44,241 nt of DNA from a virus, in the IMG/VR virus record IMGVR_UViG_3300049825_000297, positions 1-44,241 of that record; one strand, written 5' to 3'. A program made the position numbers and the translations under genes. The notes under the pieces were generated by a model. The model was not told the origin of the DNA, did no database searches, and saw only the letters and a list, made by a program, of their open reading frames with translations. Positions 24,619 to 44,058 of this stretch are shown here, piece after piece (positions within the stretch are counted from its first letter, which is position 1; each line of letters begins with the position of its first letter).

Positions 24619-24850
24619 TATGAATTTCTACAGAAGCCTGTAAGACTCCAGCAGCCGCTGTGACTAAGGCGGCTGCACAGGTCGGGCAAGAACAGCCATT
24701 GATTGCAGCGGTTGCGCTGTGGTCAGAGTCAATTAAAATCAAAATAACACTGTTAACCTGAATGTGCAGTCTTTTGGCGGCATCTTCTATTGTTTGTCTC
24801 AGATCGCCGAGGATCATTTGAACGTCGTGGGACTCTAATACATTAGCCAT
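24584..24850 (-). CDS. 88-aa Cys-containing protein, last gene of early operon
   Basis: An 88-residue protein starting MANVLESHDVQM; start chosen at 24850 because GGAGAA lies about 9 bases upstream. Contains a GCSCPTCAA motif (C-x-C-x2-C) that could bind metal or be redox-active, and Ala-rich helices. I do not recognise the family. It overlaps the upstream ATPase gene by 8 bp and the convergent holin-like gene by 35 bp. Being promoter-distal in the replication operon, it may be a small accessory factor. Confidence 0.65.
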   Translation of the reverse strand: MANVLESHDVQMILGDLRQTIEDAAKRLHIQVNSVILILIDSDHSATAAINGCSCPTCAAALVTAAAGVLQASVEIHIKGSAKPQRKV

Positions 24851-26096
24851 TGTTTCGTTTCTCCGTTGGGCGGTAGGTCTTACCGCCGATTGATGTGGCT
24901 TCACTCAGGATGCCCGCGCGAACCATCATTTCAAGGACTCGCATGATGTTGTGCGCGGGAACCCGCTCAGCGAGAAAATGTACGATGCGGGACTCGAGAA
25001 CAGGCTTCTTCCCCTCTCGCATGTAGATTGTGTAGACGTGATGCCAAGTGTCCTCGATGGCCTTGCTATCCCCGCCAACTTTCATAGCTTTGAAAGTGTC
25101 GGGCATGTAAGCTTCGGCCTCAATCATCCAGTCCAGTGCGGTTATGAAGTCCTCTTCTGATATGATGAAGCTATCGGAATGGTTCACGCTGGCAATCATG
25201 CAGAGTTTTATCAGGTGGTGAACGCGCCGGGTATTGTAGTTGGTTAGCTTAGGGTGATCCGGCTGCGGCTGTTGCCCGTTCTTGGCCCAGTTATTTATTA
25301 GAAGTGCCGCCTCAGGAGAGAAGGAAATTTTTCCAACCAGTTCACCGATGTGTTTTATTCCGTCTTTGAGTTCACGTTCCATTTTGTTGTTTTTAGTATC
25401 CTCGGCAAATAGGTCGCGGATTTGACGTTCGCCTGAGAAGATGATAATTACTCGGGAAAGGAAGCCTTGGTCCCACGCTCCCTCTGGTAAGGTAGTCATC
25501 AAGTACGAGGGTGTACAACAGGCAAGCATATTAAGCTGCACATTTTCGATTTTGAATTTGGTGTCCTTGGTTCGGCGGCGTTCGCTGTAGGATTTGCAAT
25601 CCCAAAGGTCCGTCAGGGTAGACATGAACTCAGTGTCGTATTGCGGAATAAGTACGCCGAGTTCTGTCGAAAGGATTGATAGGGAGTGAAAGGAAATTGG
25701 GGGCTCGAGAATATTCGGCATGAATATTCGGCGCTGGGAATCTTTCAGGTTGTCAATTAGTGCTGCTTTGGTCAAGCTGCTGGCCGCGATGTGATGATCC
25801 TCAAGATGCTCAAGCATGAGCGATGCCCGATTGAGGGACTCTGACTTCCCGATCCCTGGTCCAGCTACGAATAGAACGAATAGATTTGGATAGGTGTCAG
25901 AGCCGAATGAACGAGTCCAGACCTTGCGCTCAAGTGCTGCTGCAATGGTATAGATAGCTGACCATTTGCGAAAGAGTCCGGGGGAGTTGATGTTCTCCGT
26001 GTAAGTGCAGTAGTCTCGAACCCAGTCACGTTTTAAAGGAAGTCGGACAACCTGCGCTTTGGGTTTGGAGGCAGGCGATTGTTGAAAGTTTTCCAT
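24843..26096 (-). CDS. DUF3987-like ATPase, putative replicative helicase
   Basis: A 417-residue P-loop protein: WSAIYTIAAALERKVW near residue 50, Walker A AGPGIGKSES near residue 80, Walker B-like SFHSLSILSTELG, then LNMLACCTPSYL and WDQGFLSRVIIIFSGE with a sensor-like Arg. This pattern fits DUF3987/primase-helicase-type proteins of phages, so I infer a DNA helicase acting with the polymerase encoded just upstream (64 bp overlap). The N-terminus is too short for a primase domain. The C-terminus looks like a winged-helix (HNIMRVLEMMVRAGILSEAT). Confidence 0.75.
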   Translation of the reverse strand: MENFQQSPASKPKAQVVRLPLKRDWVRDYCTYTENINSPGLFRKWSAIYTIAAALERKVWTRSFGSDTYPNLFVLFVAGPGIGKSESLNRASLMLEHLEDHHIAASSLTKAALIDNLKDSQRRIFMPNILEPPISFHSLSILSTELGVLIPQYDTEFMSTLTDLWDCKSYSERRRTKDTKFKIENVQLNMLACCTPSYLMTTLPEGAWDQGFLSRVIIIFSGERQIRDLFAEDTKNNKMERELKDGIKHIGELVGKISFSPEAALLINNWAKNGQQPQPDHPKLTNYNTRRVHHLIKLCMIASVNHSDSFIISEEDFITALDWMIEAEAYMPDTFKAMKVGGDSKAIEDTWHHVYTIYMREGKKPVLESRIVHFLAERVPAHNIMRVLEMMVRAGILSEATSIGGKTYRPTEKRNNG

Positions 26097-27571
26097 TTGT
26101 CCAGCCCATTAAGATTGCCGCTTGGCATATTGTTTTTGTATTCAATGTCTCCCCAGTTCCACCCGACTTTAGCGTCAAGCGGAACGAGGAAGGTTCGTCC
26201 CCGCGAAAGCTGCAATGGAACTTTGAGAGTTTCCAAATAAACTGGAAGGCGGTCTTTGATAGTTGCATAGGGGGCTTGGAATGTGATGGAGTCGTGAACC
26301 TGGACGAGTAGTTGTGTGTCGGGACAGGCACGCCAAAGCTGCGTATAACCTCGATCAATTTCTTCCGCCGTCATAGACTGAGGAGCGTAGGCCACGGCCT
26401 CGCGGATGGTGGTGTCCTCAGAGGGGCGGCCGAAGAAGAAACGCCTACGCCCGAAAAGGGTGGTAAGGCTGCCAGAAAATTGTAGTTGCTCCGCAACGTC
26501 CTCGTGCCACTTTTTTATAAGAGGGAAAGCGGCGAAGTAGCGTTCCTGAAATTCCTCAATGAGTTTCTGTTCAGTCTTTGTGTGATGCGCCATCGTGCGG
26601 GGAGTGCCAAGATAATTTGTTCCGTGCCCCAGCCGTTTCGCAAGGTCGCGGTAAGACATTTCGCGATAGGCGTTTTGGTCAGCGATGGCTCGCCATCCGG
26701 CACGATCATCAGGCCAGGCCAAATCGGGCCAAGCCATTCTACAGACGGTGGTGTGAAGGTCGCCAGACTCGCAAGCATCAAGATAGTCCCCGGCTCTGGG
26801 ATCGTCGGAGAAAGTTTCCCAGATAATTGCTCCCACGTTTCGCGTGTCGGCTTGCTTCAGATCGACGTTGACGATAATCATCTTAGGGTCTGCAATGAAG
26901 GGATAACGCAACTGGCGAGAGACGTTTTGAACATTTGTTCCCGTGCCGAACTCATTCATGCGCGAGGCCAACCGCCCGGAGTTTGTCCCCGCGATGTTGA
27001 AGCTGCTGCGCATCCGACCATCCGGGTCGATCTCAGTTTTCAGAAATCCTATCTGCTTGCCAAGGTCACGCATGGCGAGGATGTAATTACAAAAGACCTT
27101 GGCGAAGAAATGCTCGGAAAGTTTTTCAAGCGCGGCCCGACCAGTTGTAGCGGAGTATTCCCCCTTGGAATTGCGCCCGCGAACCGGCTTAAGGCCAAGG
27201 GTGCCATAGAAGAAGTTTTTAAGCTGAAGCGGACTGCGCCAGTTAAGCGTTGTGTTGAACGCCCCGGCCAGAAGCCGGTCGAAATTTTTCTGCAAATGCA
27301 ACAAGTCCACAGTCAGCGCGCGGAGCGCTGTCTGCCGTGCCGCCTCGTCAATACGAAACCCCCGCATGGACATTTCCATAACCGGGGCTTGTTTAGCGAG
27401 GGCGTTGGCGTAGGTAAGCTGGACGCATTCTGGTTCGAGGGCAAGCTGACGCTTTAGCTCATCCCGGATTTCATAGGTTACGGCGCAGTCGAGGCCGTTG
27501 TATACCCACGAAGCTTCGTCAGAATTTATGACCGGCTGTTCATCAAGTAGGGCTGTGTTGATGATCTTCAT
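26033..27571 (-). CDS. Family A DNA polymerase, C-terminal part of a split protein
   Basis: A 512-residue protein with the polymerase domain of Pol I. The N-terminus keeps only exo motif III (WVYNGLDCAVTYEI, Y24 and D28). Polymerase motif A is NVDLKQADTR (D237); motif B is R308-x3-K312-x3-H316-x3-Y320 in RDLAKRLGHGTNYLGTP; motif C is QVHDSI (D427). H316 stands where E. coli Pol I has Phe762. Exo motifs I and II are in a separate protein at 32652-33656, 5 kb upstream. The ATG at 27571 overlaps the DUF1937 stop as ATGA, so I reject the longer upstream frame. It synthesises phage DNA, probably with the exo protein as partner. Confidence 0.93.
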   Translation of the reverse strand: MKIINTALLDEQPVINSDEASWVYNGLDCAVTYEIRDELKRQLALEPECVQLTYANALAKQAPVMEMSMRGFRIDEAARQTALRALTVDLLHLQKNFDRLLAGAFNTTLNWRSPLQLKNFFYGTLGLKPVRGRNSKGEYSATTGRAALEKLSEHFFAKVFCNYILAMRDLGKQIGFLKTEIDPDGRMRSSFNIAGTNSGRLASRMNEFGTGTNVQNVSRQLRYPFIADPKMIIVNVDLKQADTRNVGAIIWETFSDDPRAGDYLDACESGDLHTTVCRMAWPDLAWPDDRAGWRAIADQNAYREMSYRDLAKRLGHGTNYLGTPRTMAHHTKTEQKLIEEFQERYFAAFPLIKKWHEDVAEQLQFSGSLTTLFGRRRFFFGRPSEDTTIREAVAYAPQSMTAEEIDRGYTQLWRACPDTQLLVQVHDSITFQAPYATIKDRLPVYLETLKVPLQLSRGRTFLVPLDAKVGWNWGDIEYKNNMPSGNLNGLDKWKTFNNRLPPNPKRRLSDFL

Positions 27572-27891
27572 TCGAAAAGGCTCACGAATTTCGGGGACCG
27601 CTGATGAAGGAATTGAAAAAGGGAGATTTCCTGCTGGACTCCAGAACTTTCCTGCCAACCCTCGATTTCCAGAACCCAAAGTTCTTTTGAGTGAAGGATC
27701 ATGGCTTCGTTCAGGGCTTTCCATGCAGCAGCGAAAGTTCCAACCTCTTTGGCCAGCTGATGCCCGTAGACGATCGGAGAAAATATTGCAACTCCTAACC
27801 GAAGTTGCGTGGCGGTGTAGGCCAAAGCCAAGCGGTAGCGATGTTCCATTTGCTCCGGAGTGCCGGAGTATGGCGATGCAAGGTAAATCAT
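27568..27891 (-). CDS. DUF1937 / nucleoside deoxyribosyltransferase-like protein
   Basis: A 107-residue protein starting IYLASPYSGTPEQMEHRY, with FSPIVYGHQLA and SSGVQQEISLFQF, the pattern of DUF1937 (PF09152) in the nucleoside 2-deoxyribosyltransferase-like superfamily. The conserved N-terminal YLASPYS loop and downstream Glu residues would form a nucleotide-binding pocket; a role in nucleotide salvage or modification is inferred only. GGAG precedes the ATG. Its TGA overlaps the polymerase ATG, so the two are translationally coupled. It is the last gene of the block that separates the polymerase halves. Confidence 0.8.
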   Translation of the reverse strand: MIYLASPYSGTPEQMEHRYRLALAYTATQLRLGVAIFSPIVYGHQLAKEVGTFAAAWKALNEAMILHSKELWVLEIEGWQESSGVQQEISLFQFLHQRSPKFVSLFE

Positions 27892-27930
27892 TGGAGGCTC
27901 CTTATTTTTGATAGTTGAACAAAAGGTTTA

Positions 27931-30279
27931 TTACGACCATGCACCCTTAGTGTTACTGCCGGTTGGTCCAAGATAATCCAACACAATATAGCTGCCAGCT
28001 TGCACGATAGCTGCCACCGCAGTAGTCAGTGTGATTGATGGAATGAGTGTACCAGTTCCCGTAACATTAAGGATCCCATTAATTTCCACCGCCATACCAG
28101 TGCCAACAGCTAATGCCACCAAATTGGCCGGACTGGCACTAGTGATCGAGAAAGTACCTCCCTGTGCGTTGACTGTAAGTGGCGTTGAGCTATCAAAACC
28201 TACTGCATGATAAAAGATGTTGGCAATTGTGGCGGTGCCTGCCCCTTTCAGGTCAAAAGCTGCGTTACCGCTGGTAGCTGACATGCTCAGAATATGAAGC
28301 ATACAGCGAAAAGCATAACGTCCAGTTGCTAGTGTCACTGCTCCGTTGGCCGTGAAGTCGAACAATTTTTGAGATGTACCAACGTTAGCTAGGGCATAAT
28401 TAGCTGTCAATTGCCCGTATATCTGTAGCCCCTGCACAAAGGCAGTGGTGGCAATCGACGTGTCATTGTCACCAAATGCGGCGGTAGGGGCTAGTGGGTC
28501 TCCGGTGAAAGTTGGCGACGCCATCGGCGCTTTTAGCGCAAGGTCGCTAACAAGATTGGTGACGGCGCTTTGTGGTAAGGCAATCGTAGTGTTGGCGGCG
28601 GCGGTAATCAGCCCCTTGGCGTTGACCGTGATTGCCGGAACCTGCGTGGCACTGCCGAACGAACCAACTCCGGCATTGACCGTGGCAAGCGTGGTGGCGA
28701 ATGATCCTGTACCAGAACCAGTTGCATCGCCGGTAAGCGTAATGGTCTGGTCGCCGCTATTAGTTCCAGTCAGGTTCAGATCGACCTTAACCTGCGCCGG
28801 GGTCCGCACGGACCATGCCGATGCTTTGGCTTGCAGGAAGCTATCCGTTGTCGCCGTCAGACCGGCAATCGTGGTCAGATCAGCATCCAGAGGCTGTTTG
28901 TTGGACAGGTCCGTCACCAGATTGGTGATGTCGCTTTGCGGGTGTACATGCGCGGTCGGGGCATCGCCGATGTAGATCACATTCCCGTCGCTGATTGCCG
29001 TGTCGAGTTGGGATTTGGTGAAGCTGCCAAGCGCGGTAGAGTTGCTGCCAGCGCTTGCGGTAACAGCCCCGGTCAGCGCAGCCCTTTGCAGCAACGGCGT
29101 GGCATCGACATAGGTCAGTGACCCGTCGATCATCGCGCCAATGGCATCTTGGGCCAGTTCATCGGTGTATTGCGTTACGTCGCCAACGTAGAGGATGTTT
29201 CCGTCAGAAACGGCGGCATCGAGTTGCGCCTTTGTGAAACTGCCTAGCGAAGCCGCGAAGCTGCCAGTGCCGCTACCCGTGACCATGCCCGTGAGGGTGA
29301 TAGTCTGGTCGCCGGTGTTTGTTCCCGTAGCCGTCCCGCCACCAGTGGCGAAATCCGCACTGGTCAGGGCGGCATTGAACTCCGCAAGGGTGCCGGTGAT
29401 GCCGACAATCGTTACCTGATCGCCTGTGTTGGTGCCGCTTGACGTGCCGGAAAAGGTGCCGCTTTGGGTTGCCAGTGAGCCAAGGCCGAGCGTGGTGCGC
29501 CAAGCCACCGCCGTGGTGTCATCCAGCAAGGTGCGTGAAAACGCCGTGAAATCAGTTACCGTTGCCGCCCCGGCCCCGGTGAAATAGCCCAGCTTGTCTG
29601 CCGCGCTTGCAAGTCCAGCCCATGCCGTCAGGTCAGTATCCAGCGGCTGATAGGCCGCGTTGCCTTCCGCCGCCGTCAGATAGACTGGGTGTGGGTCTGC
29701 CAACCCGGCATGATCGGCGACAGCGCCGGTGACGAACGCCGTTGTGGCGAGGCTGGTGTCATTGTCCCCCGTCGTTGCCGTAGGGCCGCGCGGGTTGCCG
29801 GTGAACACAGGCCCCGCGAGGTCAGCCTTTGCCGTCAGCGCCGCGTCAAGGTCGACCTGTGCCGATAGGGTGCCGGTAATGGTGCCCCATGCCGTGGCTG
29901 CGGCTGCCGTGGTGATTTTTGGCACCCCTGCGGCGTCAAAATACGACCAGTTGCCTTCGTCAAGAACAACTCCTTCCCCGGCCAACAGCGTGACCTTCAG
30001 CACCCGGCTTGCAATAGACCCATCATAGCGCTGCACCGTGACAGTATTGCTGGCGCTGGCATGGGTGTTGAAGATCGAGAGTGCTTTGACCCCCCTCGAC
30101 GCGCCAGAAGCCGGAGCAGCAACAACCGTAGTGGTGGCGGCTGTCGTGATGGCGATATTCAACGACCCCGGCGTTATCGTCGTAGCGCTGAAATCGCCCC
30201 AACTCGCAGCAACGTCAATATTGGCCGTGCCGCTGGTGATAATCCGCAGAACCGTGCTAGTGGTGGAAAGGATAATCAT
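27931..30279 (-). CDS. Long tail fibre protein on the early strand
   Basis: A 782-residue fibre. The N-terminus ([20 protein letters not shown], then [20 protein letters not shown]) is a module common in alphaproteobacterial prophage fibres. The shaft repeats units such as [13 protein letters not shown] (three copies), [16 protein letters not shown]-like (two) and FTGxPxxPTAxxGDNDTSxATTAFV (two), typical of phage fibre stems. The last ~195 residues, encoded by about 27931-28520, form a distinct AT-richer beta-rich tip. The ATG at 30279 overlaps the preceding spike stop as ATGA. It is unusual in lying in the replication operon, inside the split polymerase locus. Confidence 0.85.
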
Positions 30280-32303
30280 GCAAACCAACTCCCTAAAGGA
30301 TTAGAAATGCCGCTTTGTGTGGCATTAATCGGATCAAGGTCGCGGGTGGCAAAGTTGCCAAGCTGGACTGCGACGTTGAAGATTGAGAATGTTCCAGACA
30401 GTGTTCCCGCTCCGACGTTAAGGCGGAAAAGTAAGTTCCAAAATGCGGCGGGGTCTAGGACTGTGTAGGTTGGAAGGGTGAAGGTGAACTCATAGCGCTT
30501 GAGCGTCGTATCAAACTGCAGACGATAGTTGTTCCCGAATTTGACACGGAAGAATGTTGAGGCAGGGGTTCCCGCGCCGTTGTCAAGAGACATGATTATG
30601 TCCTCAAGTTGTTGTCCAGCAACGGCAGCGAAGGCCTCGAAGGATAAGGTGACGACCTGCCCAGACAATGGCAGCACGGCGGGAATTTTGTGCTGCAGGA
30701 AACAGGTGTTACCGGTGAACCCTATGTTGTTGACACGGATACCGTAAGTCTCCCGGCCGTTCCCTGCAACGCGGGAAATACGCTCCCCGGTAAGCTGGGC
30801 CGCGCCAAGGGCAATAACGTTCCAGCCCGTGGCGATCTCAACAGCGGCAGCCCCGGTGGAGGTGCCAGTTGTGGCTGTCCAGTTTTCGAACGTAGCATTG
30901 CTGACCCAATTGCGGAGAGGTGACTGGCGCAACTTAACGGCGGGGTCGAATAGCCGCCAAACTCCGTTAAGCATGTCTGTCTCGTCCGCGTTATCATCAA
31001 GCGGGTAGACTGACCACTGAGACGGCTCCGGGAAAATGAAATTGTAAGTTCCGAGGGCTCCCGCCACACGTCGGGCATAGAGGAAGTTAAGAACTCGAAC
31101 GCCGGTCGGAGTCCAGGTGCCTAGAATAGCCGAGGGATTATTTAGCCCCCGACAGGTCCAGCGCTGAACTGTTATGGTGGATTTATCGGTCTGCGAAGTT
31201 CCGGCGGCGACCGGGTAGCCAGCGTCACCGAGAAGGAACAAGCTTGGGTTAACTGTATTGAAGCCAAGGCTCTGCATGTTCAGGGAAAGGAACGTGATGG
31301 AGGATTTGATTGCGTGAACCAGGCCCATGTTGTCCGCGTACATTGCGGAATTTTCGAGGTGTGTTGCCCCGATCGTCAGGTTGGTAATGGAGTCGGCACG
31401 AATCAGTGGGCCATTGACACGGGCCAAGTGAATGTTAAGCTGGGTGATATTGATAGCGGTACCAGAGTTTTCCTTCCCGGTCGCCTTCTCAATATTCAGG
31501 GCACAATCGGCACGGTGAGCGGGGAAGGCTGTCGCGTAACCCTCGATGTAGAATTGCCCCTCGATCGTGTTACCCGTGCCAAGCGGGGCATCCCAGCCAC
31601 GGAAGGAATAGCCCTGAATGTAAAGGTTCCGAAGCGAGACGTTGAACGGGGTAGTGTCAGAATAGATTGCGGTGCCTGAGTCGCGGAAGGTAATGTCGGT
31701 GACGGAAGTTCCCCGGCTGGCGTTTGTTGCTCCGCTTCCGAGGTTAAGCAGAATACGCTGCCCTTCAACCTCGGTCAGAGCGATGGCAGCGGGGGTGTAA
31801 GCTAGCGTAAGGCTGGAAATCCCCGATTGTTGTGCTAGGGAAACAAGTGGAGTGGAAACTGCCAGACTGGCGAGGCCTATGATGGAACAAGCCTGACGTC
31901 CGCACCCGAAGATATACTTGCCGATTAGGGAAATGCCACCAGAGATCGCAAGGTTGCCGATAAGCTCGATGGAGCTGTGGTTAGTCAAGGTAAGCTGCGC
32001 GGCGGTATTATCGTCGGTAACTCCGTCGCAATAGGCGCCGCAATGCTGGAAGTAGACTGGTCCGGCTGCGGTCCAGGTGGAACCATCGGCCAACGTAATG
32101 TCGGCGGGGGTGCCCCGGACATACTGGCAGAGGACTCCGCCATGAACACAGCTGACATTGTTAATGATCGCGGGCGGAGAGCTTGCGAGAAGTTCCGCCC
32201 GCGTGGCATAGGAATAGCCGACCGGAGACCAGCCACCAAGGGGAAATTTGCGAAGCTGTTTGAAGAGTTCCCGGAAATTGGCCTCGATCTGCGACATTTT
32301 CAT
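30276..32303 (-). CDS. Beta-helix tailspike on the early strand
   Basis: A 675-residue protein. Residues 1-40 are helical ([20 protein letters not shown]) and may anchor it. About residues 85-450 look like a pectate-lyase-type right-handed beta-helix ([18 protein letters not shown]; later [19 protein letters not shown]). The C-terminal 200 residues contain a carbohydrate-binding-like sandwich ([18 protein letters not shown] ... [17 protein letters not shown]). The ATG at 32303 overlaps the preceding TGA as ATGA, which fixes the start. It may digest capsule or O-antigen as part of the virion, or act as free depolymerase made early. Confidence 0.82.
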
Positions 32304-32659
32304 TGGAACGGACACTCCATGGGTAGGCCGGTACGGTAGGCAACTTCCCGCTCGAGATAGGCTGTCCACAGAAATAGCGGAAGGTTGTGGGCACGAACCA
32401 GCCCGGCCGCAGTTTGTGCAAGCTGCAAAATGATGTAGCCCTTGGGGTCAGGAACTTTGTTGATGAAGGCCTCATCGAGTTTGAGGACAAACTCGAAGAA
32501 CCCGCCCTCGCCGGAGGTTCCTTCCCCATGATCGCGATTCATGATGGAGGATTTGAAGGTGGCGATTTTCAATGCTGCCTCCAGACCAACCAAATCAGCA
32601 GGAATTGCAGTGCGAAGTGAGCCGTAATCAGCGTCGGGATTGTGAGGATCATTATTCAT
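32300..32659 (-). CDS. 119-aa protein between exonuclease and tailspike genes
   Basis: A 119-residue protein (start MNNDPHNPDADYGSLRTAIP). The C-terminal half has hydrophobic helices (GYIILQLAQTAAGLVRAHNL, PLFLWTAYLEREVAYRTGL). I do not recognise the family. The ATG at 32659 overlaps the exonuclease TAA (8 bp) and its TGA overlaps the tailspike ATG, so it is coupled to both. A spike chaperone or an unrelated early protein are both conceivable; nothing in the sequence decides. Confidence 0.7.
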   Translation of the reverse strand: MNNDPHNPDADYGSLRTAIPADLVGLEAALKIATFKSSIMNRDHGEGTSGEGGFFEFVLKLDEAFINKVPDPKGYIILQLAQTAAGLVRAHNLPLFLWTAYLEREVAYRTGLPMECPFQ

Positions 32660-33656
32660 CCGCCTGTTTGAGGGTGTCGTGGTCAGCCCGCATGAATTTC
32701 CAGTTTGGCTCATCGGTGTAAAGGGAACCGAGGAAGCCGAGGCCTTTTTCCATCTCGGGCTGGAGGGAGTGGTGAAGCAACATTGTGTCGTCGCAGAAGC
32801 CGGGGCAGGGGATGCCCACGGTTTTCCATAGGTACTGCATGTCGTACTGAAAGTTCTGGCCGAAGGATTTGTGGTGTCGGAGGATAAGGCGAACCCATTT
32901 CCATGCCTCGCGCTCCTCAGCTAGTGTCGGCCAGTAGTTCCCCGAAGGCTTGGCGCGAGAATAAAACGGGATAACTAGGGCACGTTCTGGCGATGGGGCG
33001 AAGCCAATCTCGGTGATCTGCCCGCCCTTTGTCTCAATGTCCACAGATAGATCGCTGACACCTTTGACGTAGGTTTTGTAGAACTCGCCTATGTCGGCCA
33101 AGCTTGGTTCAACATGAACAAAGCGCACAGGGCGTCGTAAATCTGGGAACTCAGCTTCCCGGCGAGCCTTGGTGAAGTCTGCAATGGCGATGGGACGAAG
33201 TGACCAGTTTCTGATAATAGAAAGAGGAGCATACGTAGGGAGGATTTTCCAGGGTCGCCCGTAGGCAAGGATGGGAGTGCCCCGATATTTCTTGAGTCCT
33301 GTTTTCTTGGCGAGAGCCCAAAGAGGTAACTCTCCAAGAGATATGATAAGGCTGGGTCGAACGTAGTCCAGCTCTGCGAAGAGTCTGTCAATTTCATTCT
33401 GAAACTCACGACGAATGTATCGGGCGGGGCGAATGGGTCGGAAATCAGGAATAGCATCGAGTTTTGATCCACAGTAAGACTCCACGTCCATCCGGGCCGG
33501 GCGAGATTGAAAGACGACTGTCTGGTGACAATCGTTAATATCAATTCCTGCATGAGAGAGCATTCCTTTGAGAAGGTGGAACTTTGTTCCCGCGAACGGG
33601 AGTCCTTTGGCGGCCTCGTCGTCGCCCCAAAACTCCCCGACGATTGCGATTTTCAT
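32652..33656 (-). CDS. UDG-like domain fused to half of the polymerase 3'-5' exonuclease
   Basis: A 334-residue protein. Residues 1-165 resemble family 4/5 uracil-DNA glycosylases: IVGEFWGDDEAAKGLPFAGT (residues 5-24), PSLIISLGELPLWAL, and ILPTYAPLSIIRN (138-150). Residues 198-334 are a DnaQ-like exonuclease as in Pol I: exo I SVDIET (D206, E208), exo II GQNFQYDM (N268, D272) and DDTMLLHHSLQPE. The domain ends before exo III, which is found in the polymerase at 26033-27571. Start at 33656 (GGGGGC site upstream). A near-consensus promoter lies just upstream. Role: proofreading or uracil surveillance with the separated polymerase, inferred. Confidence 0.88.
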   Translation of the reverse strand: MKIAIVGEFWGDDEAAKGLPFAGTKFHLLKGMLSHAGIDINDCHQTVVFQSRPARMDVESYCGSKLDAIPDFRPIRPARYIRREFQNEIDRLFAELDYVRPSLIISLGELPLWALAKKTGLKKYRGTPILAYGRPWKILPTYAPLSIIRNWSLRPIAIADFTKARREAEFPDLRRPVRFVHVEPSLADIGEFYKTYVKGVSDLSVDIETKGGQITEIGFAPSPERALVIPFYSRAKPSGNYWPTLAEEREAWKWVRLILRHHKSFGQNFQYDMQYLWKTVGIPCPGFCDDTMLLHHSLQPEMEKGLGFLGSLYTDEPNWKFMRADHDTLKQADE

Positions 33657-33683: not shown

Positions 33684-33712
33684 AGCATAGCGTATGGCTC
33701 CCCTTTTGTCAA
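33684..33712 (-). promoter_or_regulatory. Near-consensus sigma70-like promoter for the exo/polymerase block
   Basis: Read on the minus strand: TTGACA (33712-33707), a 17-base spacer, then TATGCT (33689-33684). The -35 element overlaps the TGA stop of the methyltransferase gene. It would drive the UDG/exonuclease gene, the tail genes, DUF1937, polymerase and ATPase. One GAGCCATA box lies in the spacer (33700-33693) and one just after the -10 (33675-33668), a repressor-like layout. Confidence 0.7.
33693..33700 (+). promoter_or_regulatory. TATGGCTC box inside the promoter spacer
   Basis: Between the -35 and -10 hexamers of the promoter at 33684-33712, 18 bases start to start... 25 bases from the second copy at 33668. 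Read on the minus strand as GAGCCATACG. The position between the hexamers suggests repression by steric exclusion of RNA polymerase. Confidence 0.5.
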
Positions 33713-34986
33713 GCACTTAGCTTGAGGTTTTCCCTAGCGCGGTCCGCGAACTCAGGATTGCGCTCAATGCCGAGGGCGAACTGTGCACCAAGGGCTTCCG
33801 CAACCTTGACTGCGTTCCCGCCGCCGCACGTTGGGTCGAGGAACATGGTGTATTCATCGACCAGCATACGGAAGAAATGCTCCAGCATGGTGGAGGATTT
33901 CTCGCTCATGTGGAAGTCTTTGGTGGTGGCGCAGGCGATAGCGTTGCCGACTGCGCGGACGATCTTTGGGTCGCCTCGAGTTGCGAATAGAGCGGTTTCG
34001 TAGACACGGCGAGGTCCTCGGTTGGAGTCGGGAAGGATGCCCTTGTTGTCGGACTTCAGCCAGATCAGGGGGAAGGGGGAGACTGTCCAGCCTGCGGCAG
34101 CAAAGGTCTCGATGGTCTGCTGATAGAAGTCCATGGAAAACCAGAACATCAGGTGCGCCTGCGGAGCAATGAAACGATCCTGCATAGCGAGAAACGAACC
34201 GACAAGGTCGAAGTAATCACCTGCGGTGTCGGAGTAACTTCCGAGGACTTTGGAGCTGGATTGCCCGCGCTTGTCGACTCCGACGCCGTAGGGGAAATCA
34301 CAGTGGATGAAGTTGAAAGCGGGGCCGGAATAAGAGACTGCCCAAGACATGAAGTCTGCTTGAAGGATAGATGCTCGACGCGCTGGAGCTGACAACTGAA
34401 CCTCTCCGCTTCCTGTGCCGCCTTCTGGCTCTGGCTCATTGATCTCAAGAAGAACAGCATTGCGTTGACGCTCCTGTTTCCGCAACATGACGTTGCGGGC
34501 GACTGAGAAAGTGTCGGCGGCGACGACCATCGGCTCGCCCTCGTTAAGGCCCCGTGCCACGGTCAAGACCTGCTGGATATAGCTTGTGGATAGGCCGAGG
34601 TTCCCGGCCGAGTCGGTGATGGTCCAGTCGGCAGCAAGTTCGGCGCGTAGCTTGTGATAGCGGTCAACTGCGATGGCGTGATCTTGCCATGTGAGGTTTT
34701 CGCGCTTGACGTTTTCCTCGAGCTCGAGAAGCTGAAGTTGGACGGGATCGAGATCTTCGGCGAACTGCACCGGTATGGAGTCCCAACCGAGGGAACGGCA
34801 GGCTGTGACGCGACGTTCCCCGGCGACAAGCTGGCCTGCGCGGGTGACAACGGGAGGATTGATAAGGCCAACGGAGGCGATGGACTCTGCTAGTTCGGAA
34901 ATTCCCGTCAACTCCCGGCGCTGGCGCTCGGCACGCAGGATGATAATGGAGTCGAGGGGGAAGGGAGAGAAGTTGCCGGAGGTCAT
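33709..34986 (-). CDS. ParB-like / beta-class DNA methyltransferase fusion
   Basis: A 425-residue protein. Residues 1-170 are ParB/Srx-like with a helix-turn-helix tail: LTGISELAESIASVGLINPP, VAGERRVTACRSLGW (GERR box), LELEENVKRENLTWQD. Residues 210-425 are an SAM-dependent methyltransferase with catalytic motif IV as CDFPYG (near residue 230, in place of the usual DPPY) ahead of the SAM-binding DPTCGGGNAV (near 381), the order of beta-class N6-adenine/N4-cytosine enzymes. Such fusions are frequent in phages, where they may protect DNA from host restriction. It overlaps the DUF6378 gene by ATGA. Confidence 0.88.
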   Translation of the reverse strand: MTSGNFSPFPLDSIIILRAERQRRELTGISELAESIASVGLINPPVVTRAGQLVAGERRVTACRSLGWDSIPVQFAEDLDPVQLQLLELEENVKRENLTWQDHAIAVDRYHKLRAELAADWTITDSAGNLGLSTSYIQQVLTVARGLNEGEPMVVAADTFSVARNVMLRKQERQRNAVLLEINEPEPEGGTGSGEVQLSAPARRASILQADFMSWAVSYSGPAFNFIHCDFPYGVGVDKRGQSSSKVLGSYSDTAGDYFDLVGSFLAMQDRFIAPQAHLMFWFSMDFYQQTIETFAAAGWTVSPFPLIWLKSDNKGILPDSNRGPRRVYETALFATRGDPKIVRAVGNAIACATTKDFHMSEKSSTMLEHFFRMLVDEYTMFLDPTCGGGNAVKVAEALGAQFALGIERNPEFADRARENLKLSA

Positions 34987-43874: not shown

Positions 43875-43930
43875 TGGATTGATCCTTGTTGGGCCTGTCT
43901 CGTCAGCACACGCTGGCCGGGCAATGTGGA

Positions 43931-43947
43931 CGGGCCAGTGTGGCCCG
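43931..43947. repeat. Perfect 7-bp hairpin in the early operon
   Basis: CGGGCCA-GTG-TGGCCCG, a compact stem with a 3-base loop, lies in the 79-base gap (43875-43953) between the 46-aa and 34-aa genes. On the minus strand no T-run follows, so it is not a classical terminator there; it could shape mRNA processing or partial attenuation. Confidence 0.45.
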
Positions 43948-43953
43948 TTTCGA

Positions 43954-44058
43954 CTATTTTGCTTTGGGGATGATTTTGAGGCGTCCGTCAACATAGGCGA
44001 TTGCGATATCTGGCACGTTATCCTTTTTACCCGTAGTAAGTGGAATATTGTTTTCCAT
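43954..44058 (-). CDS. 34-aa microprotein
   Basis: A 34-residue frame (MENNIPLTTGKKDNVPDIAI, AYVDGRLKIIPKAK) whose ATG shares one base with the stop of the upstream junction-spanning gene (TGATG); GAAGGTGG lies upstream. Beta-like, basic end. No family recognised. Confidence 0.5.
   Translation of the reverse strand: MENNIPLTTGKKDNVPDIAIAYVDGRLKIIPKAK

Follow-up and report, generated by a model that had tools for sequence, protein, structure and literature searches.

A phage DNA polymerase I carried in two genes that divide the motifs of its proofreading exonuclease

Introduction

A usual, though not strictly defining, feature of DNA polymerase I (Pol I) is that its polymerase and 3'-5' exonuclease activities reside on one polypeptide. 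The phage genome analyzed here, IMG/VR record IMGVR_UViG_3300049825_000297 (positions 1 to 44,241; this whole 44,241-base stretch is called the window), departs from that pattern: its polA-like gene is present as two open reading frames (ORFs) on the minus strand, N-terminal part upstream, which lie 5080 nt apart and together encode one phage-type Pol I. This locus raises the question of whether the gene has been broken, is repaired after expression, or specifies an enzyme that works as two chains. The original prediction, drawn from the letters of the window, proposed that a 5-kb block had been inserted into a former single polA gene, leaving a two-chain polymerase whose exonuclease site must be assembled between chains. 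The evidence considered below, all of it from sequence, makes it highly probable that one phage-type Pol I is permanently encoded by two genes, with chains that assemble without a peptide bond and an exonuclease site that is complete only in the heterodimer, and it points to the 5-kb block as a later addition.

Anatomy of the divided polymerase

The N-terminal chain (P0001; 32652..33656, minus strand; 334 aa) contains a uracil-DNA glycosylase (UDG)-like domain at about residues 2-153 and a 3'-5' exonuclease (exo) core with motifs exo I (D206-x-E208) and exo II (N268/D272). The C-terminal chain (P0002; 26033..27571, minus strand; 512 aa), whose ATG overlaps the stop codon of the preceding gene as ATGA, begins with the exo III helix (Y24-N-G-L-D28) and continues through thumb, palm and fingers with polymerase motifs A (D237), B (K312) and C (H426-D427). 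All three motifs of a DEDD exonuclease are thus present but divided, with four residues on the N chain and two on the C chain, and the family A polymerase motifs are in place, D237, K312 and D427 being invariant across the pairs of related genes described below. Searches against Pfam matched P0001 to UDG at 2-153 (6e-11) and to DNA_pol_A_exo1 at 198-314 (3e-4, slightly below the curated cut-off), and P0002 to DNA_pol_A at 101-474 (1.9e-29). In the PHROG profile for DNA polymerase, phrog_17, the N part matches positions 480-788 and the C part takes up the next stretch, 809-1242. The ORFs, Pfam and phrog_17 matches and motifs therefore bear out the two-piece gene, the placement of motifs, the shared strand and the N-then-C order that had been predicted.

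The larger ORFs of the window were scanned for a second full polymerase or a complete exo domain of the same kind in one protein, either of which had been named as grounds for abandoning the prediction, and none was found; the C chain is a single match in the whole record. The UDG-like domain matches uracil-DNA glycosylase in predicted fold and in Pfam, yet the active-site 'HPS' motif of families 4/5 (residues ~141-146 of the protein encoded at 32652-33656) is replaced by YAP here and varies among the relatives; the glycosylase of the N chain may therefore be inactive or altered.

In the proposed enzyme, the greater part of the DEDD exonuclease fold, including the catalytic residues D206, E208, N268 and D272, would come from the upstream chain together with the UDG-like domain, and the downstream chain would begin with the helix bearing the last two (Y24, D28) and go on to form thumb, palm and fingers. 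Because the catalytic residues are divided over the chains, an exonuclease site would be expected only in the heterodimer, whereas polymerisation could in principle be carried out by the downstream chain alone.

Position of the cut

When the halves are aligned with unsplit phage Pol I proteins (ctMlz233, Mel-JY34 and that of a Desulfofustis phage), they tile one protein with nothing missing. The cut falls between the helix of exo III and a conserved 'WK' located beyond exo II. Across the split pairs, 9-19 residues follow this WK on the N chain and, in nearly all pairs, 17-29 residues precede the exo III Tyr on the C chain. Unsplit ctMlz233 has only 17 residues in total between WK and the exo III region; since the tails and leads of the split pairs together exceed this number, each chain has gained a short extension.

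Distribution and age of the split

Besides the window, 226 further distinct pairs were found after removal of duplicates, nearly all of them in IMG/VR, and every one is cut at the same site. The group has hardly any cultured members; one of the 226, the cultured Caulobacter phage Kuura, has two unrelated small ORFs between its halves. Only six distant sequences (phage collection, five; genome bin, one) are uncut at this site. The sampling of homologs favors close relatives, as the best 80 per scan were taken, and E-values from these scans are local. A search of genome contigs gave only five relatives, mostly fragments, and a search of plasmid sequences for relatives returned UDG-like matches only.

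In a tree of 105 sequences the cut genes form one side of a branch with support 99, and in a tree of 220 sequences the cut is one change, again with support 99. Intact single-gene relatives exist and the fragments tile the intact protein, as in phage enzymes encoded by genes in pieces. Since the cut genes form one clade, the split is old and predates the 5-kb block, and its presence in 226 other genomes indicates that it is not a chance event. The part of the original prediction that had the block itself divide a single polA gene is accordingly not supported: relatives share the cut with inserts of 318 bp, 615 bp or none at all. A caveat raised with that prediction, that related phages might show these to have always been two independent proteins, holds to the extent that the close relatives are all two-gene, but fails further out, where outgroups are intact at this site, so the halves were once a single protein. 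The preferred reading is that the gene was divided once, long ago, in the common ancestor of a large group of phages, and that the divided state was then kept.

Ribosomal frameshifting or readthrough, which is not possible over 5 kb, and a sequencing error or chimera as the source of a cut that 226 relatives share, were both ruled out.

Other interruptions were seen in polymerases of this collection. An outgroup, Vibrio phage VS-ABTNL-3 (L161, 1373-4507; MF497422), has a second split site: its polymerase stops immediately ahead of motif A, following 'LQN(L/I)P', and an additional ORF separates the parts; the polymerase of locus L156 ends at the same point. The C chains of L008 (3780-6185) and L038 (8363-10792) contain long in-frame insertions at two different polymerase sites, which look intein-like on reading the sequence (Cys at the start, GN at the end before Ser/Thr), and Pfam gave no Hint match to them.

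Conservation of the exonuclease site and coupling between the chains

If the proofreading domain had decayed after it was divided, its catalytic residues would be expected to vary. Instead, D206 and E208 are found in all 224 pairs that have letters at these positions, and N268, D272, Y24 and D28 in all 227. The same residues are also invariant in the 41 loci recruited by polymerase-domain patterns alone, so the way in which the loci were found did not create the invariance. Conservation of the exo part of the N chain about equals that of the polymerase domain (0.61 versus 0.63), and the UDG motifs vary far more than the exo residues. This pattern indicates that the proofreading site is still under selection.

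A mean-field coupling analysis of 221 pairs (~180 effective sequences) placed the top inter-chain couplings between the two parts of the exo domain (N297-C57, z 11.8; N289-C58, z 10.4; the best intra-chain value was 14.7). Nineteen row permutations gave a maximum of 5.8. Controls that keep the pairing, and hence shared ancestry, remained at or below 7.6 for the N chain against C121-480 and at or below 6.2 for the UDG domain against C1-120. At N289-C58, E or D occurs with K or R in 101 pairs and H with R or K in 56, a salt-bridge pattern such as a direct contact would give. Two weaker couplings, N181-C3 and N177-C7, are in the register expected of antiparallel strands; they lie inside the control range and are a hint only.

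Predicted structures are consistent with this picture. The N chain matches UDG plus the Klenow exonuclease in its predicted fold, and when modeled alone by AlphaFold it is confident to about residue 290 and then drops to pLDDT <60 (poor from 293 to the end), in the region where packing on exo III and the C chain is expected. The predicted fold of the C chain is that of Pol I, with the first 15 residues mostly coil. The two-chain polymerase with an exonuclease site built across chains, the central element of the original prediction, is thus well supported by the six invariant residues, the cross-chain coupling, the apparent disorder of the N-chain end when folded alone, and the failure to find another polymerase among the larger ORFs of the window. 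Two points weigh on the other side: invariance of the exo residues could in theory reflect a structural or DNA-binding constraint instead of catalysis, and the coupling comes from ~180 effective sequences and one simple method.

The slot between the halves

At 5080 nt, the slot of the window is the largest seen; in relatives it ranges from -4 to 1737 nt. Read down the minus strand, it holds four genes. A c1-family gene of 119 aa (32300..32659; family HMM E 1.7e-13) has its ATG inside the last codons of the N chain. It is followed by a gene for a tail-spike/baseplate-like protein of ~675 aa (30276..32303; phrog_31122), whose start overlaps the stop of the c1 gene, by a tail fibre gene of ~782 aa (27931..30279; phrog_2631, 7032 and 454), and by a DUF1937 or nucleoside 2-deoxyribosyltransferase-like gene of 107 aa (27568..27891) that lies directly before the C chain and whose stop codon is the one overlapped by the C-chain ATG.

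According to family HMMs, DUF1937 genes occupy 111 of the 227 slots, usually directly before the C chain, c1-family genes occur in 23, and HNH endonucleases (Pfam HNH_3) in 13. Slots shorter than 100 nt (36 of 227) often show an ATGA overlap, and even there the halves are still two genes. The same cut is seen with an insert of 318 bp (locus L006), with one of 615 bp (L010), or with -4 to 13 nt and no insert (L060, L082, L085 and L088). Close relatives can differ by single inserted ORFs: the halves of L060 meet in an ATGA overlap without an insert, L047 and L051 have different ORFs at that place, and comparable differences distinguish L117 from L118, L151 from L070 and L130 from L126. As the minimal slots are nested in the tree, cargo came and went while the halves stayed separate. 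Copies of 'GA[C/T]GAATGA' stand on both sides of the ORF inserted in L047 and may be a direct repeat left by insertion or used in deletion.

Because the 119-aa gene of the window belongs to the c1 family, its slot probably once had the order N-c1-DUF1937-C that L010 shows. The genes for the spike-like protein and the fibre are late cargo inserted between c1 and DUF1937; they did not cause the split. Apart from repeat-like matches, no fibre homologue turned up among the other collected loci, and the spike gene was not found in other loci in the phage-collection search and stands alone in slot clustering. The GC content of the block is unremarkable and resembles that of the genome. A slot gene of L096 (5903-6382), a member of the window's subclade, reads by eye like a virion protein, so the window may not be alone in having tail-type cargo; neither this protein nor the c1-family gene of L010 received a name from Pfam. 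On reading the sequence, the 1248-nt slot of L305 contains a frame for a ThyX-like thymidylate synthase, along with a second, small gene.

Taken together, these comparisons indicate a history in which the gene was split once in the ancestor of the clade and then kept in two parts. The junction is a tolerated insertion slot at which small genes (mostly DUF1937, sometimes HNH) come and go, and in the window phage two tail genes were added to it.

Alternative explanations

One alternative is that the polymerase is whole after all, because its halves are rejoined after expression by protein trans-splicing of a split intein or RNA trans-splicing of a broken intron. Split inteins do occur in a phage family B polymerase (PolB of MIJ3; PMC6892783), the C chains of L008 and L038 have the intein-like insertions noted above, and introns are known in phage polymerase genes, as cited in PMC10580990. 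At this break, however, neither half shows intein ends or splice-junction residues, in agreement with the original prediction, and in nearly all pairs the tails and leads are too short for intein halves. Rfam gave no match to an intron in the window, and the ATGA overlap of minimal-slot relatives leaves no space for intron arms. Rejoining is therefore very improbable. Less probable still is that the window reflects a recent accident, with polA broken by a 5-kb tail block through damage to the genome or its mis-assembly. The size of the slot, the presence of tail genes in a replication operon and the failure to find the spike gene in other loci would suit such an event, yet the cut is shared without the block by 226 other genomes, including the isolate Kuura, which refutes this account of the split, and the seams of the block are clean, with overlapping start and stop codons and a GC content like that of the genome.

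A more serious competitor, although still an unlikely one, holds that the proofreading exonuclease is dead, with the N chain kept for its UDG-like domain and the C chain acting as an exo-minus polymerase. An insertion would most simply be expected to leave the exo domain broken, some Pol I enzymes lack an exo site through loss, and the UDG-like domain may serve some other function. The catalytic residues of a dead exo domain should disappear, and here the six are invariant over 227 pairs, the exo part is as conserved as the polymerase domain, and coupling is strongest between the two exo parts; it is the UDG motifs, YAP in the window, that are much more variable. How the first cut arose is a separate matter, and it is possible, if somewhat doubtful, that an HNH homing endonuclease gene made it and was later mostly lost and replaced by other cargo, a proposal that is compatible with a permanently two-gene polymerase. 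HNH genes are present in 13 of 227 slots, and there is precedent in mobE of Aeh1 nrdA, the process being established in T4-like phages (PMC2988022). On the other hand, the earliest branches, L304 and Kuura, have no HNH gene in the slot, and the HNH genes have the scattered distribution over the tree that late arrival would produce. No homing endonuclease was detected in the window slot by Pfam or PHROG, such a gene being a common but not universal feature of genes-in-pieces systems.

With assembly of two separately encoded chains as the preferred account, a bolder version can be considered, namely that the split is functional and not merely tolerated. Since proofreading needs the N chain and polymerisation may not, fidelity could be tuned by the ratio of chains, the new N-terminal extension of the C chain could have evolved as a docking strand, to which the weak N181-C3 and N177-C7 couplings would correspond, and the slot could be a regular gene-capture site that takes even receptor-binding tail genes. 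We regard this version as speculative and rather improbable.

Neighboring genes and other features of the window

The gene after the C chain encodes a DUF3987 primase/helicase-like protein (24843..26096, minus strand), an order that is kept in relatives, and upstream of the N chain lies a gene for a ParB-like/DNA methyltransferase fusion (33709..34986, minus strand), with the same order in L006 and other relatives. The phage looks podovirus-like, having a head-tail connector (phrog_332) and an internal virion protein (phrog_342). A match to the Hammerhead type II ribozyme was recorded at 43889-43955 on the minus strand (37.9 bits against an Rfam gathering score of 37).

Relation to known systems and significance

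Split phage enzymes are already known, and genes in pieces have been described for NrdA, topoisomerase and family B polymerase in T4-like phages (PMC2988022). A close parallel is NrdA/mobE of Aeromonas phage Aeh1, in which an essential phage enzyme is cut into two genes in a critical region, a mobile gene occupies the gap and the enzyme is active as an assembly of its two chains (PMC2988022). That case concerns a ribonucleotide reductase and was described for one phage, whereas the present split affects a family A polymerase, is fixed across a large clade, mostly has an endonuclease-free gap and runs through a catalytic site to which both chains contribute residues. In gene 43 of Aeromonas phages 44RR and 25 (43A/43B), a replicative polymerase is likewise in two genes and the intervening sequence differs between relatives (PMC2988022), but that enzyme belongs to family B and to T4-like phages, and the 44RR gap also lacks an endonuclease. 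PolB of MIJ3 is a split phage polymerase with an HNH gene between its parts; it differs in being of family B and in having intein splicing blocks at both ends (PMC6892783), of which the window pair has none.

Among family A enzymes, OM43 phages MEP401 and MEP402 divide the polymerase over two ORFs that flank a small one, an arrangement also present in related metagenomic genomes (PMC10580990). Their cut is inside the polymerase domain and leaves the exo domain whole in the first ORF, and the authors thought an intron possible; a comparable palm cut is that of Vibrio phage VS-ABTNL-3, and possibly that of L156. Family A phage polymerases with the UDG-exo-Pol domain order of the window (phiLo, ctMlz233 and Mel-JY34) are single polypeptides. 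Of these, ctMlz233 (Manatee Spring phage) and Mel-JY34 (Microcystis phage) are the nearest unsplit relatives found, and the solved structure of the phiLo polymerase (PDB 9qhs) is a weak match to the N chain. The cultured phage Kuura (OQ067476; PMC9959647) shares the cut and the order N chain, C chain, DUF3987-type gene, and differs in its slot ORFs. Its record labels only the C chain as polymerase, and its paper names a polymerase but never uses the word 'split' (PMC9959647); the arrangement is easily missed because annotation names the C chain alone 'DNA polymerase'. No description of a family A polymerase split in the exo domain, or of such a cut at the exo site becoming fixed in a large lineage, was found in the open-access papers searched, absence there being no proof.

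The cases found in that literature concern single phages or small groups, whereas here a cut through a catalytic site has passed down a large lineage, the site staying intact over two chains. The locus also provides an example of a split gene that remains split after its insert is lost, and of a slot at which repeated gene gain and loss are visible between close relatives. In addition, these phages may offer a family A polymerase whose proofreading module is naturally separable, so that adding or omitting the N chain should switch proofreading on or off.

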